From: Desulfobacterales bacterium
Lineage (GTDB): Bacteria > Desulfobacterota > Desulfobacteria > Desulfobacterales > Desulfobacteraceae
Reading direction: 5' to 3'
DNA: 12,394 nt
NCBI GenBank assembly: GCA_022361095.1
Contig: JAKSBO010001159.1
Location: 1-12,394, forward strand
A model generated the notes under the pieces. That model saw nothing but the letters and a program-made list of their open reading frames with translations. It had not been told where the DNA came from and searched no databases. The position numbers and the translations under genes were made by a program. This document shows positions 1 to 5,195 of the stretch, in pieces (positions within the stretch are counted from its first letter, which is position 1; every line of letters starts with the position of its first letter).

Positions 1-2954
1 AGATAAGTGGGATATAAAAATAGATAAAAAGAGAGGGGGCGGGAAAAATTTGCGCCCAGAACCCCATCCACAAACAATCTGCTGATATGATGTTCATGAC
101 GCAGCATATGCTGGGCCTGGAAAAATATCGCCTTTTCTTCGGGGGTCATTTCAGACACCACACGGATTAATGAGCTTTGGGCCCGGGGCAGATACATCCA
201 GAAATAAAAAAGATCCAGGGCGTTAATGATGATCAATGTTGCCAGATCCCTGACTTCTGAGTTTTTGTTGTCTAACAGCATATCTGAATTTTCTAAGATC
301 TTGAGTTCTTCCGTGTCTGGAAACAGCATGATCAACTTAGAGTAAATATCAAAAAATTCTGATATTTTTTTACGGATATTTTGCTTTCTAAGACGCGTGT
401 AAACAGATCTGTCCGCCGCCGCTTCAATGAATCCGGCTACAATATCGGATGCCCCTTTTGAAATGATGGCCGCCCATTTTTGGAGAATCGCATTAATATT
501 GGGGACGTTTAAAAAGCCTAAGCCCGCGCCTATGCCTGCACTGAGCACAACGGCAACGGGGATGGAGATAATGCTTCTGAAAAAATTACCGGCCACAGCC
601 CCTTTGGGCAACCCCCTGAAAAAGTTATGGGTGGAAAGATAAATTCCATTGGCAAGGCCCATGACGGCATAAAGCATCACAGGTCCGTTATCTATTGTAA
701 TACCAAGCGTATCGTCCAAAAGAAGGGTTTTAACCAGATAGTCCAGCAACGGGACTGAAAAGCCTGTGAATAATAGAGAATCGGCAAGCCTGTCCCAACT
801 GACATAGTCATTCCATTTTAAACGGGATGCCCTTCTAATACCGCCGCCGCCGATTACCGATTGAATGACATTTCTTATGCCTGTTATGCCAAACCAGATT
901 AACGCGCCAAAATAGGCCAGAAGCCACCAGTCTTTGGTCAGCATGAAGCAAAGCTGGGCCGGAATAAATCCTGTAATGACCTTGAATAAATTTTTAAGCT
1001 GGGTATTCAGGTATTTAAAAGATTTTTTAGGCTTTGATGCGTTACCGGATTTTGCAACATATGTATCTTTTTGTCCCATCAACGCCGATCGTCCAAGGGT
1101 AACCAGGTTCCCTTTGGAAGCCGGATGAAGCAGAAAAAATTCAGGTATCCACTTTTTTTTCCTGGTGGATAATAAAAAACGCATACCGGGAATCCAGGCA
1201 ACCGCACCGGGAATCGATTCCGGTGGAGACGAGATGGTACACAAACTGGTTTTCACATCGACCGGAAGGCGCAGCATGCCGCTGCTTTCTTTTCTTATTT
1301 TTTGGCGAACCCTGAAGGGCAGGGTGTCAATGACAGCAAACCCCATACCGTAATGCCCGGGTTTTCCTGTGGAGTCAGATCCGATTCTTAATTTGATAGG
1401 CCGGGCATCAAACATATGCTTGAATTCGTTAATGTCGTTGAGGATCACGGACAGCGAATGCAGCAGGTCCCTCTTTTGATCTGCACCGTGTTTTTGCACA
1501 TCTGCAAGAATTTTTGAAATGATGCGCTTTAATTTTAGAATGCTTCCCTGGTTGATGGCTGCCTGCAGTTCATTGACCCGGAGCGTGGTTTTATTGTCCA
1601 GAGGATTGTATTTTTTCAGATTAATAATTTCGATTCTGGAGATTTTGCCGTAGCTTTCATATAACAACTCAAGCACATCTTCAGGCATGAGCCTGTCCAG
1701 GGTGAGGGTGATTCTAAAATCATCAAGAAGGTTGTCTATCTGTCCCAAAAGCGTACTGAACGAAACACAGAGCCTTGGGGGGGCATCATCGCCTTTCTCT
1801 TTAACATAATCGTAAAGTCCGCTGAAAAAGTGCTCTGCATCAAGGTATTGTTCAAGGATATCGCTGGCCATGAAATCATTCATGGTTTTGGATAGGCGGC
1901 TAAAATGTTCTTGGGCTTTCGGGGTGGTTTGGTCCTCTTTTAAATGGGCCATTTCCAATTGAATGGCCTGAAGGGCTTTTGAGTGGATGAATTCACCAAG
2001 ATACTGATAACTTGCCTGGCCAGGGCCGACAAAATCGAGAAATTGTTCAGCCGCCACCGGCGGTATGGTAATCCCAAGATCCCGGGACAATGCCATACGT
2101 CCTGACGCATTGAATTTTTCCAGCAAAAGATAAAGATATTTTTCCTGGAACCTGACAAGGGCTTTGCCTTGTTCCATGAACTGAGTCACTGGGGGCTGGG
2201 CAAGAAAATTTAAAAAAGATTCAATGGTGGGCAGTCCCCTGGAGACCCAGATGAGCGATATGTATCTGCCCCGGTGAATGGGCCAGAATTCAATGCCGAT
2301 TCTCAGATCAATTTCCATAATTCCGGCAGCTTCAATCAGTTCCAGTGCCCATTTGGGTTCGATATAGTGATAATAGATGACGCGCAGTCTTCGAATGCCT
2401 TTGATCCAGGCATCCAGGATCAGATGTGTGGCACTTTTCCTGCCCGAGGTGTTGGCATCATGGACGTGATCATCAAAGGTAATTTGATTCCACTCTTCGG
2501 GCATTTCAAGCAAATGGTAATGGTCAAGCAATTGCCGGATGACCCTGGGTTTGCCGAATGCGGCAAGTCTGAAGTCGTGGGCCAGCTTAAGCTGATGTTC
2601 AGGCTGCCCTTTGGCCCGAACCAGGTCTTTCATGATCTGCATCAGTACCCTGGACGTATTTTTGGGTATGGGGCCGCCCACAGTGTCCACAATATCATCC
2701 TTAAGGCCTTTCAGGGCTTCAAGGCGGTTTGTGATATCACCGCTTTTAATGGATTCCATGAGGTTGATAATGGCGTATGCAGCCCGAAGTCCTCTGGATT
2801 CCGCAAGCTCCTTGATCCCTAACGGGTGAAAATAAGGATATAACAGCTTGCCTGTGTATCCCAGCGTTTTGGGTTCGCTATACACCGAGTCTACAATCTC
2901 AATGAGTTTGTAATCCCGCTTATCAAAAAAAATGGAATTAATAACCCGCTGCAT
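1..2954 (-). CDS. Large PHP-like plus multi-pass membrane protein, C-terminus beyond window
   Basis: The frame is open from ATG at 2954 to the left edge, giving 984 residues with no stop. An AAAGG-like ribosome site lies about 8 bases upstream of the ATG. Residues 160-225 resemble a PHP phosphoesterase core: DDHVHD at 161-166, a lone His at 196 where PHP has its TDHD motif, and GIEFWP at 220-225. Most other metal ligands are not evident, so hydrolase activity is doubtful. Residues 230-650 look soluble and helical. From 655 hydrophobic segments appear, roughly at 659-693, 723-746, 757-779, 795-815 and 903-922, with a conserved-looking GGGGIRRASRLKWNDY between the first two and HNFFRGLPKGAVAGNFFRS at 776-794. 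The C-terminal half vaguely recalls the membrane family labelled site-specific recombinase Gcr (PF10136), but I cannot confirm this. The function is unknown. Coding quality is even throughout, so the gene looks intact. Confidence 0.85.
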   Translation of the reverse strand, partial: MQRVINSIFFDKRDYKLIEIVDSVYSEPKTLGYTGKLLYPYFHPLGIKELAESRGLRAAYAIINLMESIKSGDITNRLEALKGLKDDIVDTVGGPIPKNTSRVLMQIMKDLVRAKGQPEHQLKLAHDFRLAAFGKPRVIRQLLDHYHLLEMPEEWNQITFDDHVHDANTSGRKSATHLILDAWIKGIRRLRVIYYHYIEPKWALELIEAAGIMEIDLRIGIEFWPIHRGRYISLIWVSRGLPTIESFLNFLAQPPVTQFMEQGKALVRFQEKYLYLLLEKFNASGRMALSRDLGITIPPVAAEQFLDFVGPGQASYQYLGEFIHSKALQAIQLEMAHLKEDQTTPKAQEHFSRLSKTMNDFMASDILEQYLDAEHFFSGLYDYVKEKGDDAPPRLCVSFSTLLGQIDNLLDDFRITLTLDRLMPEDVLELLYESYGKISRIEIINLKKYNPLDNKTTLRVNELQAAINQGSILKLKRIISKILADVQKHGADQKRDLLHSLSVILNDINEFKHMFDARPIKLRIGSDSTGKPGHYGMGFAVIDTLPFRVRQKIRKESSGMLRLPVDVKTSLCTISSPPESIPGAVAWIPGMRFLLSTRKKKWIPEFFLLHPASKGNLVTLGRSALMGQKDTYVAKSGNASKPKKSFKYLNTQLKNLFKVITGFIPAQLCFMLTKDWWLLAYFGALIWFGITGIRNVIQSVIGGGGIRRASRLKWNDYVSWDRLADSLLFTGFSVPLLDYLVKTLLLDDTLGITIDNGPVMLYAVMGLANGIYLSTHNFFRGLPKGAVAGNFFRSIISIPVAVVLSAGIGAGLGFLNVPNINAILQKWAAIISKGASDIVAGFIEAAADRSVYTRLRKQNIRKKISEFFDIYSKLIMLFPDTEELKILENSDMLLDNKNSEVRDLATLIIINALDLFYFWMYLPRAQSSLIRVVSEMTPEEKAIFFQAQHMLRHEHHISRLFVDGVLGANFSRPLSFYLFLYPTY

Positions 2955-3173: not shown

Positions 3174-3524
3174 TTATCCGGTTCCGGGATCTGAATTTTT
3201 GCTCACAAAGGTAAATGCTGTTTTTCCATGATCTTTGAATATGAAACTGCCTGTGCCCAATGTGCAACCAGTGGCCACTTGGATCGCATCCGCTATGCAT
3301 GTCTCTGTTTCAACAATGGCCACAATTTTTTCATCCTGAGCCTGTGTTTCTGAAAAAAAAATCATACCGGCCACGGCCCGGCCCGACATGTCATCTGCCG
3401 GACGCATCCCACTGCGAAAAATTAAAGATCTATATCGGTTATTTAGACGTTCATATAAACCTATATGTGCTTTCCCAAGCGCCGCATCGAATTGCTTAAA
3501 ACATAGGCAATGATTCAGTGTCAA
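3174..3524 (-). pseudogene. FmdE-domain remnant
   Basis: A 116-codon frame from TTG at 3524, with an in-frame stop just upstream and no ribosome site. Residues 66-106 match the core of the FmdE family (formylmethanofuran dehydrogenase subunit E-like, PF02663): EKIVAIVETETC, then DAIQVATGCTLGTGSFIFKD, then HGKTAFTF. FmdE proteins normally begin with a HGHxCPG metal-binding motif. Here the matching place (residues 45-50) reads DDMSGRAV, so the His and Cys ligands are lost. The first 40 residues resemble nothing in the family, and the C-terminal zinc-finger extension found in many members is absent. I read it as a decayed gene. A divergent functional short protein is less likely. It ends 65 bases before tRNA-Leu. 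Confidence 0.7.
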
Positions 3525-3589: not shown

Positions 3590-3676
3590 GCCTGGGTGGC
3601 GGAACTGGTAGACGCAAGGGACTTAAAATCCCTCGCCCGAAAGGGTGTACGAGTTCAATTCTCGTCCCAGGTACCA
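3590..3676 (+). tRNA. tRNA-Leu (anticodon UAA)
   Basis: A complete class II tRNA of 87 bases including CCA. The acceptor arm GCCTGGG pairs with CCCAGGT (G1 opposite T is a wobble), with discriminator A and an encoded CCA at 3674-3676. The anticodon stem AGGGA/TCCCT encloses the loop CTTAAAA, giving anticodon UAA, which reads UUA/UUG. The long variable arm CCC-GAAA-GGG and a T arm ACGAG-TTCAATT-CTCGT are typical of leucine tRNA. No second copy of its 3' end is visible in the window, so there is no direct evidence of an integrated element using it as an attachment site. Confidence 0.97.
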
Positions 3677-4009: not shown

Positions 4010-4165
4010 CATTCCTGCCAAACTTATAAAATCATTGGCCGCTTCTGCGGCTCCTTGCTGATTTCAGCGGATGCGCCCGATGTGGCAACAGAGCGCCATG
4101 ATATCCTGGATTGTTCGTACTGCCTTGGTGAAAGAGCGGGAAAACCATGGGGCCGTCAGCTTTAA
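4010..4165 (+). pseudogene. Possible gene remnant with CxxC motif
   Basis: A 51-codon frame opens directly after a TGA at 4007 and has no ATG, GTG or TTG start in its first part. Codon choice looks coding-like, and the product contains FCGSLLISADAPDVATER, then DCSYCLGERAGKPWGRQL, with cysteines at positions 3, 13, 35 and 38, which could be a metal-binding knuckle. I do not recognise it. It lacks a start and ribosome site, and its stop overlaps the convergent gene at 4162 by four bases. A broken gene is the likeliest reading, and chance is not excluded. Confidence 0.25.
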
Positions 4166-4455
4166 TACGTCGGATAAAAATGGCTTAAATCAACCGTCCA
4201 CATTGGCAGAGCGTCGCTACTGCCAAAACCTTTGTTAAGCCATAATTTGGGAAACCCGTTATCTACAGGTTTGCTTAACCTGATAAAACATTCACAGATA
4301 TACAGCCAGCCGTCTTTGCCGATCAGGGGAAGACCTTTTGACGTTTTGATTTGCTCCCAATTGGGCAGAACAAGTTTATAAAGGGCGCTCAAGGCTTGTT
4401 CCGTATTGTGAGATTGTTTAAAGATATGGTCAACTTGTTCTTTTGTTATTTCCAT
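4162..4455 (-). CDS. Small hypothetical protein, 97 residues
   Basis: ATG at 4455 is preceded by a strong GGAGGGG ribosome site about 4-6 bases upstream, which fixes the start. The product begins MEITKEQVDHIFKQSHNTEQ and is acidic to neutral and soluble, with no signal peptide or membrane segment. It has an amphipathic N-terminal half (residues 1-35) and a Trp-rich C-terminal half containing GKDGWLYICECF and FPKLWLNKGFGSSD. No known family is recognised. It is the last of three same-strand small genes (4986 to 4162) and lies 63 bases after the preceding one. A perfect palindrome ATATCA-A-TGATAT at 4465-4477 touches its ribosome site and might control translation or local transcription. Confidence 0.7.
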   Translation of the reverse strand: MEITKEQVDHIFKQSHNTEQALSALYKLVLPNWEQIKTSKGLPLIGKDGWLYICECFIRLSKPVDNGFPKLWLNKGFGSSDALPMWTVDLSHFYPTY

Positions 4456-4518
4456 GACCCCTCCATATCAATGATATTTATAAATCCAGTTGTCATCCGT
4501 TTGACCAATTTGATCGTT

Positions 4519-4743
4519 TTATCCCGCTTTTTTAATCACACCGCCTGCCTGCAGCAACTCAAAATAATACACGCTTCCGATATGATATGATAAGCGATGT
4601 TTTTCTTTGCTTATCTTCTTGTAAACCACCTGGTCGTCGTCAATAATTAAACAAATATGGATCATCTCGTTGTTTGGGTTGTTTTTTGCAAAAAAAATTT
4701 TATATCTCTCTCCAGGCCTGAATCGGTTTTTTCTTATGTCCAT
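4519..4743 (-). CDS. Small hypothetical protein, 74 residues
   Basis: ATG at 4743. The nearest ribosome-like AAGGA is about 13 bases upstream, farther than usual. The product is basic (MDIRKNRFRPGERYKIFFAK at the start) with alternating hydrophobic stretches such as MIHICLIIDDDQVVYKKI and SYHIGSVYYFELLQAG, suggesting a small beta-rich soluble domain. There is no signal peptide and no catalytic motif I can name. It lies between the PEP-CTERM-like mini-gene (72 bases upstream) and the 97-residue gene (63 bases downstream) on the same strand, so the three probably share the sigma-54 promoter at 5040-5055. Its function is unknown. Confidence 0.6.
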   Translation of the reverse strand: MDIRKNRFRPGERYKIFFAKNNPNNEMIHICLIIDDDQVVYKKISKEKHRLSYHIGSVYYFELLQAGGVIKKAG

Positions 4744-4815
4744 TTTGTCTGCATCGTCCTTTTTATATAAAACATCACGCTTTCAGCAAACACCATTCAA
4801 CTGGCTGCAATGGGT

Positions 4816-4986
4816 TCAGGTGATTTTCCTGCCGAACTTAGCAAGGCCCAGGAGGCAAAACCCTAAGGTTATCATGGACATGAAATTAAAAGTTGTCCGG
4901 CTGCTGTAAGAAATGATATCTGCAAATGCGAGCGAAGATGTAAGGATACAAGCTGTTACAATAATAAAGAAAAAAACCGTTTTCAA
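4816..4986 (-). CDS. 56-residue secreted/membrane mini-protein with PEP-CTERM-like tail
   Basis: The start is TTG at 4986, chosen because a perfect AGGAGG lies 6 bases upstream. Residues 1-22 form a clear signal peptide: MKTV, a run of hydrophobics, then TSSLAFA with likely cleavage before Asp23. Only about 12 residues follow before a second hydrophobic helix (35-49) and the basic end KFGRKIT. The tail TLGFCLLGLAKFGRKIT closely resembles the hydrophobic-plus-Arg anchor of PEP-CTERM proteins recognised by exosortases. The Pro-Glu-Pro that should precede it is absent (the place reads RTTFNF), so recognition by an exosortase is uncertain. A lipobox reading (VTAC, Cys13) is possible but would leave a very short signal. 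The mature protein would be about 34 residues and mostly anchor. It heads a three-gene minus-strand group. Confidence 0.65.
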   Translation of the reverse strand: MKTVFFFIIVTACILTSSLAFADIISYSSRTTFNFMSMITLGFCLLGLAKFGRKIT

Positions 4987-5024
4987 CGTTAACCTCCTGG
5001 CTTAAATTTCAAATTTATTTATTC

Positions 5025-5039
5025 TTGAAATAATTTCAA
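5025..5039. promoter_or_regulatory. Perfect palindrome at the sigma-54 start site
   Basis: TTGAAAT-A-ATTTCAA is a perfect 7+1+7 palindrome covering the predicted transcription start (about 5029) of the small-gene operon, directly next to the -12 element. Further TTTCAAA/TTTGAA half-sites surround it. It could be a repressor site, or simply AT-rich sequence. Confidence 0.4.
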
Positions 5040-5055
5040 AGCAATTTGAATGCCA
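5040..5055 (-). promoter_or_regulatory. Sigma-54 (RpoN) promoter of the small-gene operon
   Basis: On the minus strand the site reads TGGCATTCAAATTGCT. It matches the RpoN consensus TGGCACGN4TTGCW at all positions but two, with the diagnostic GG and GC dinucleotides exactly ten bases apart. The predicted start is near 5029, leaving a 43-base leader to the TTG at 4986. Sigma-54 promoters need a remote activator; the palindrome at 5181-5195 is a candidate site. Confidence 0.7.
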
Positions 5056-5180
5056 TGGTTTTATTATGTTGTTAATACAGTATGTTACGGTTTTTTGGTG
5101 GTGAGGGGTGGGGCCGTATTTGATAATTAAGTATCTAACTTGTGGGTAAAAAAAGTAATACAATATTGGCAATTATGTCA

Positions 5181-5195
5181 GTTATTTAAAATAAC
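5181..5195. promoter_or_regulatory. Candidate upstream activator site (palindrome)
   Basis: GTTATTT-A-AAATAAC is a perfect 7+1+7 palindrome centred about 160 bases upstream of the predicted sigma-54 start. That is within the usual distance for enhancer-binding proteins. A short palindrome CAATATTG lies nearby at 5161-5168. The role is inferred from geometry only. Confidence 0.35.

Follow-up and report, generated by a model that had tools for sequence, protein, structure and literature searches.

Sigma-54 promoters are usually regarded as fixed switches of particular operons. The closest described counterparts of the locus reported here are the PEP-CTERM/exosortase systems and the associated PrsK/PrsR genes; in PMC1569441 the PrsR regulon is given as a 17-nt motif ending TTTACA, a 32–92 nt spacer and a sigma-54 site. 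Our locus resembles these systems in the layout of its first product (a signal peptide, then a hydrophobic helix at the C-terminus that ends in basic residues), in a sigma-54 site that precedes the start by about 70 nt and has an element ending TTTAC upstream of it, and in a genome that holds both exosortases and PEP-CTERM proteins. It differs in that the 56-residue product has no Pro-Glu-Pro, no match to the family models and almost nothing between its signal peptide and its tail, while the promoter has no TGT-N11-ACA, as we read the PrsR box, and the genome has no PrsR above the cut-off.

Two further systems bear on the comparison. The pepA gene of Aquincola tertiaricarbonis is an RpoN-dependent PEP-CTERM gene involved in floc formation (PMC9850573), and it shares with our locus a sigma-54 promoter (TGGCAC / CTGCTT), an exported protein and a hydrophobic tail; the 56-residue protein, in contrast, has no PEP-CTERM motif and is known from sequence alone. 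In Desulfovibrio vulgaris most enhancer-binding proteins control one to four operons, and an enhancer site lies upstream of a tGGcacg/tTGCt promoter (PMC4641369), as a candidate enhancer site does here. There the enhancer-binding protein is tied to its target operons, whereas in our case the promoter itself is dispersed and stands before tiny genes.

We put at about one half the probability of our preferred reading: a dispersed sigma-54 cassette under enhancer control, present here as one of its copies, that serves tiny accessory proteins, the 56-residue product being exported. The recurrence of a promoter of about 150 bp, comprising a distal T-rich element, a dyad, ACA-N3-TGT and the –24/–12 site, in 7–10 genomic contexts suggests that the control module as such can spread and be given new genes, as an enhancer-plus-promoter unit with changing cargo within one genus.

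A conserved sigma-54 promoter and three small genes

The window, the whole stretch of DNA that was analysed, is 12,394 nt long (contig JAKSBO010001159.1, from a Desulfobacterales bacterium). The sequence-only reading had described a sigma-54 site followed by a Shine-Dalgarno sequence, a TTG start and ORFs of 56, 74 and 97 residues, and all of these are present on the minus strand (Table 1). The interval it drew, 4162..5195, agrees closely with the block that is conserved from one genomic site to another. Its spacing of 43 bases between promoter and start is correct when counted from the predicted +1, near 5029, to the TTG; from the end of TTGC to the TTG the distance is 54 bases.

Table 1. Positions of the cassette features in the window
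Feature	Position	Strand	Basis or remark
Sigma-54 –24/–12 promoter, TGGCATTCAAATTGC / TGGCATTCAAATTGCT	5041..5055 (TGGCATTCAAATTGCT to 5040)	–	GG/GC ten apart
Shine-Dalgarno region CCAGGAGGTTAACG, with SD CCAGGAGG within	4987..5000	–	strong; conserved among homologues
56-aa gene, TTG start at 4986	4816..4986	–	ORF, homologues, dN/dS
Predicted Sec signal peptide codons, cleavage after AFA	4921..4986	–	by pattern
74-aa gene	4519..4743	–	ORF, dN/dS, structure model
97-aa gene	4162..4455	–	ORF, dN/dS, relatives
Block conserved between different genomic sites	~4158..5190	–	comparison of sites
Distal conserved upstream element TTACTTTTTTTACC, candidate enhancer site	5145..5158	–	13 aligned promoters
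GATA/TATC dyad, here GATACTTAATTATC	5122..5135	–	aligned promoters
Proximal element AACATACTGTA (ACA-N3-TGT)	5076..5086	–	aligned promoters, pattern search

Taken from the window alone, the evidence for the promoter is weak: with one mismatch allowed, the sigma-54 pattern matches twice (once exactly) against 1.43 matches expected. The 56-residue protein occurs in 9 of the 59 genomes searched, namely the window's own and 8 of the 18 other Desulfobacter genomes, and in none of the 40 genomes of other genera. All nine copies of its gene have TGGCA-N6-TTGC at one position together with about 100 bp of conserved upstream DNA, and because the site stands at the same position in all eight homologues we take the promoter to be real.

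The three frames are coding and under purifying selection, since NG86 dN/dS lies below 1 in nearly all pairs: in 28 of 28 for the 97-residue gene (eight sequences), in 10 of 10 for the 74-residue gene (five sequences) and in 19 of 21 for the 56-residue gene, where the remaining two pairs gave 1.14 and 1.48. The last figure comes from seven of the nine genomes, the copies in G013 and G017 having indels. A chance ORF is ruled out by the conservation together with dN/dS. None of the three proteins matched Pfam, NCBIfam, PADLOC or PHROG models better than E 0.01, in keeping with the earlier description of the 74- and 97-residue genes as unrecognised. The observation on the locus is thus real and conserved, and its arrangement is unusual.

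Upstream of the –24/–12 site, the distal element ends 86–90 nt before the –24 element in all 13 aligned promoters. The GATA/TATC dyad is found in many copies, is altered in several and is absent from the most divergent one (G008). The proximal element lies 32 nt from the –24 GG in the window and 30–32 nt from it at 16 other sites, which a search with the proximal element plus the –24/–12 pattern recovered in 19 genomes, against none for the reversed pattern. The window's own copy falls outside these 16 because its proximal element departs from the consensus right after TGTA. Ten of the 16 are cassettes, four precede a MotA/MotB-like operon, and one each lies in G005 and G011. At the motility promoters the profile described below matches the proximal half only, so the distal element is not common to them. 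The proximal element is therefore part of a wider sigma-54 set and may be common to promoters of this kind in general; it is the distal element that marks the cassettes.

The form of the element shared with the MotA/MotB-like operon is AACAYnnTGnAWATNA, seen at G000:C312 (L095/L099) and G002:C237 (L087/L108), and likewise at G016:C1:3498728 (L111) and G018:C1:1456300 (L106). At L079 (G011) and L088 (G005) the proximal element and a sigma-54 site stand before frames of 315 and 141 residues (stop to stop), for neither of which a Pfam match was found.

Dispersed copies with changing gene content

A promoter profile was built from the 13 aligned promoters and used to search 19 genomes of the genus, with up to 150 candidates scored per genome. 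It gave at least 15 strong matches, of 67–107 bits, in 12 of the 19 genomes; among the candidates scored, the next match below these 15 reached 27 bits. Thirteen of the 15 strong copies had been in the profile alignment, the new ones being a copy with a 78-residue gene in G018 and a copy in G005. Twelve copies were reached through the small genes, and their link to tiny genes therefore arises partly by selection. The promoter itself led to only three: the 78-residue copy of G017 by the pattern, and the 78-residue copy of G018 and the promoter of the G005 97-residue gene by the profile. Among the candidates scored in the 19 genomes no strong match stood before any other kind of gene, and this absence is the non-circular part of the link. 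A looser promoter pattern gave 13 sites against one control hit; one of its sites, G002:C230, lies before a different gene and does not count among the strong profile matches.

Gene content varies among the 15 copies. The 56-, 74- and 97-residue genes are intact together in four (G000, G016, G006 and G013), and a fifth, in G015, has the first two with a broken 97-residue gene. The 56-residue gene stands alone in four others (G002, G017, G018 and G008), with neither partner within the fetched flanks, the 97-residue gene is alone in four (G004, G015, G005 and G009), and the 78-residue gene is alone in two (G017 and G018). In G009 and G005 the 97-residue gene occupies the spot where the 56-residue gene starts elsewhere, and the –24 element of these two copies reads TGGTA with GG and GC kept. 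Because the 15 copies lead into varying members of a four-gene set, the three genes form no fixed operon. The two partner proteins proposed earlier are thus not supported as constant companions: the 56- and 74-residue genes occur together in only five of the 15 copies, one of them with the broken third gene, and the combination of the three varies.

The downstream flanks sort the 15 copies into ten groups, or seven when every shared flank is merged. Between purU and a truncated tRNA-Leu, G015 has no cassette. No terminal repeats common to the copies were seen in the five copies scanned, and apparent movement could stem from rearrangement of the DNA around the cassette.

The 74-residue protein is predicted to adopt a small beta-rich fold (pLDDT 76), for which the structure model gave no confident match; one more relative of it was found on a further contig. 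The 97-residue protein has longer relatives, 32–41% identical, at 11 places in nine genomes, and a twelfth, weak match contains internal stops. Neighbours of the longer relatives include RadC, DUF2958, DUF932 and ArdcN/ArdC-type genes, one example of each being confirmed and the rest assigned by eye. Such genes are a setting of integrative elements, and the 97-residue protein looks like a shortened relative of an integrative-element accessory protein. The 74- and 97-residue products look cytosolic, since no signal was seen by eye. The fourth tiny gene, of 78 residues, lies behind the same promoter at L071/L133 (G018) and L060/L132 (G017) and had no family match over the cut-off; in G018 an SprT-like/DUF2786 gene is found further downstream of it.

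Carriage by phages found no support: 18 viral stretches were picked up by the promoter pattern, but none scored above 10.9 bits with the promoter profile. An alignment search for relatives of the 97-residue protein in viral contigs found none. On plasmids there was likewise no match for the 97-, 74- or 78-residue proteins.

The 56-residue protein and the PEP-CTERM question

The mini-protein consists of a predicted signal peptide and 34 further residues, which include a hydrophobic helix towards the C-terminus and finish in basic residues. Hydropathy and an AxA-type pattern point to the N-terminal signal peptide; the predicted cut follows AF[AG] in 12 of the 13 family members and VFS in the remaining one, and all 13 have the second hydrophobic stretch and a net charge of +2 or +3 in the last eight residues. 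The earlier description of a protein that is almost only signal peptide and hydrophobic helix therefore stands in all 13 members, by pattern and hydropathy. On these two kinds of evidence, the 56-residue product is probably an exported membrane peptide. It is probably not an exosortase substrate.

The sequence-only reading had placed the protein near the PEP-CTERM proteins under PrsK/PrsR and sigma-54 control, an interpretation that is partly supported. The window's genome does contain exosortase (four PF09721 matches over the cut-off) and PEP-CTERM proteins (15 matches over the cut-off of a short model that also passes it in 2 of 14 control genomes). A scan of the genome at E ≤ 10 found PEP-CTERM matches at 18 places, none on the window's contig. 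The mini-protein itself gave no TIGR02595 or PF07589 match at E ≤ 10, a setting at which the HMMER filters still drop most matches above E ~0.1, and so was not recovered as a family member. The lack of Pro-Glu-Pro, conceded from the start, is confirmed: neither PEP nor PxP precedes the helix in any of the 13 aligned members, although three members of the genus have [ND]PA at about the PEP position.

A profile built from 17 PEP-CTERM tails of the window's genome scored 15 of its own tails at 44–56 bits and an untrained Nitratidesulfovibrio tail at 35.5 bits. Eight of the nine mini-proteins entered this test, the G002 protein falling outside by the hydropathy filter, and they scored from 14.5 down to 2.1 bits, against 3.1 bits for the best of 136 other membrane tails. 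Seven of the eight beat all controls; the G006 protein (2.1) does not. When the residue order within the helix is shuffled, the real score is still reached in 1–32 of up to 300 trials for the various members, and a PEP-CTERM tail that was not used for the profile and continues beyond the helix (L019/L023) scored only 1.2 bits. The claim of a PEP-CTERM-like tail thus holds as a likeness, with seven of eight above controls and helix plus basic end in 13 of 13, but not as family membership. The likeness of the tail to a sorting tail is supported by these comparisons; its membership of the sorting system is not.

Control by PrsR, part of the same interpretation, was not borne out. The best TIGR02915 (PrsR) score was 413.5 against a cut-off of 502.6; as the genome is 95.67% complete, a missing or divergent PrsR is possible. 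The box TGT-N11-ACA is our own reading from a Nitratidesulfovibrio plasmid, five distinct strict sites being present on the stretch it was read from, and may differ from the published logo. So read, it occurs in none of the 13 cassette promoters, against 0.53 expected from shuffling, and in none of the 15 PEP-CTERM upstream regions examined, out of 18 loci (L022, L023 and L026 were left out). The PrsR regulon reading is thereby weakened. The distal element ends TTTACC, one base off the published TTTACA, and its 86–90 nt spacing lies inside the published 32–92 nt, so that a motif related to the PrsR box is possible despite the absence of TGT-N11-ACA.

The examined upstream regions of PEP-CTERM genes do not show the cassette elements. 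In two of these genes a sigma-54-like site does precede the start, by 69 and 75 nt, and the start of the 56-residue gene likewise lies 69 nt after the –24 T. Exosortase is present in nine of nine genomes with the 56-residue gene versus five of ten without it (p = 0.033), and in 12 of 12 cassette genomes versus two of seven without a cassette (p = 0.0018); both p-values are post hoc and uncorrected for ancestry, and two of the cassette-free genomes are only 56% and 74% complete.

Possible roles of the cassette and its neighbourhood

The functions proposed for the cassette products are read from sequence. In the proposed mechanism, an enhancer-binding protein would sense a signal and activate sigma-54 polymerase by DNA looping, and the activated polymerase would switch on the tiny genes wherever the cassette sits. 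The Sec pathway would probably export the 56-residue product, with cleavage after AFA; the 34 residues left would span the membrane once, their N-terminus facing the periplasm and the basic tail the cytoplasm. This peptide would most likely remain in the inner membrane and serve an envelope complex as a small accessory or regulator, rather than become an exosortase-processed surface protein. MgrB, AcrZ and KdpF are small inner-membrane regulatory proteins of tens of residues with a single span. The 56-residue product is like them in size, in its single span and probably in binding a membrane partner, but differs in its predicted signal-peptide cleavage; the likeness is one of form and not of compared sequence.

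The 56-residue protein could instead be a stripped-down exosortase client or PEP-less decoy, perhaps under a divergent PrsR-like regulator, which we consider unlikely but arguable. The seven tails above the best control, the exosortase in every genome with the mini-protein or the cassette, the TTTACC ending at a published spacing and the start distance shared with one PEP-CTERM gene all speak for it, and the likeness of the distal element to the published PrsR motif counts against the cassette reading. These points are offset by the missing PEP and family match and by the lack of both PrsR over the cut-off and the box as we read it. Moreover, the association p-values ignore kinship and are post hoc, helix-order shuffles can match the real tail scores, and a genuine PEP-CTERM tail scored as low as 1.2 in the same test. 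A variant that joins the two readings, in which the dispersed sigma-54 cassette would supply a PEP-less mimic whose uncleavable tail occupies or tunes the exosortase, is improbable in our estimate; were it true, the mimic would adjust surface-protein sorting on demand in exosortase-bearing Desulfobacter. The 56-residue product separates a sorting-like tail from any passenger protein, and so offers a compact test of exosortase recognition beyond Pro-Glu-Pro.

Membership of a motility sigma-54 regulon, suggested by the proximal element and –24/–12 site before the MotA/MotB-like operon in G000, G002, G016 and G018 (an operon with MotA_ExbB and, in the next gene, an OmpA domain), is decidedly unlikely: the profile covers only the proximal half there, so that the distal element is not shared, the proximal element may be general to these promoters, and the non-cassette sites in G005 and G011 precede frames with no Pfam match. 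A toxin-antitoxin pair, with the 56-residue gene as a hydrophobic toxin and the 74- or 97-residue gene as its partner, would suit the small hydrophobic product, the linked small genes and the dispersed locations. We hold it to be very improbable, as the 56-residue gene occurs without the 97-residue gene in four of the 15 copies and the 97- without the 56-residue gene in four, the cleavable-looking signal peptide is conserved, and the best PADLOC match has E = 0.011. That the 56-residue frame is a leader or arrest peptide controlling the genes behind it, as its first place in the operon and its signal peptide with a short tail might suggest, is scarcely credible when four of the 15 copies keep it with neither the 74- nor the 97-residue gene in the fetched flanks. 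The independent loss of genes rules out both the leader peptide and the toxin-antitoxin pair as the main reading.

Around the cassette, the window contains a 984-residue ORF at 3-2954 (minus strand) that runs off its end and has no NCBIfam and no significant Pfam match. An FmdE-like fragment, named by eye, lies at 3174-3524 (minus strand), its start differing from that of the longer L002 ORF (2736-3164), and is probably decayed. A tRNA-Leu(taa) adjoins the cassette at window positions 3590-3676 and at loci L135, L138 and L145. In G006 and G015 the same neighbours adjoin a remnant of only 60–79 nt of the tRNA region, a picture like that of an integration site.
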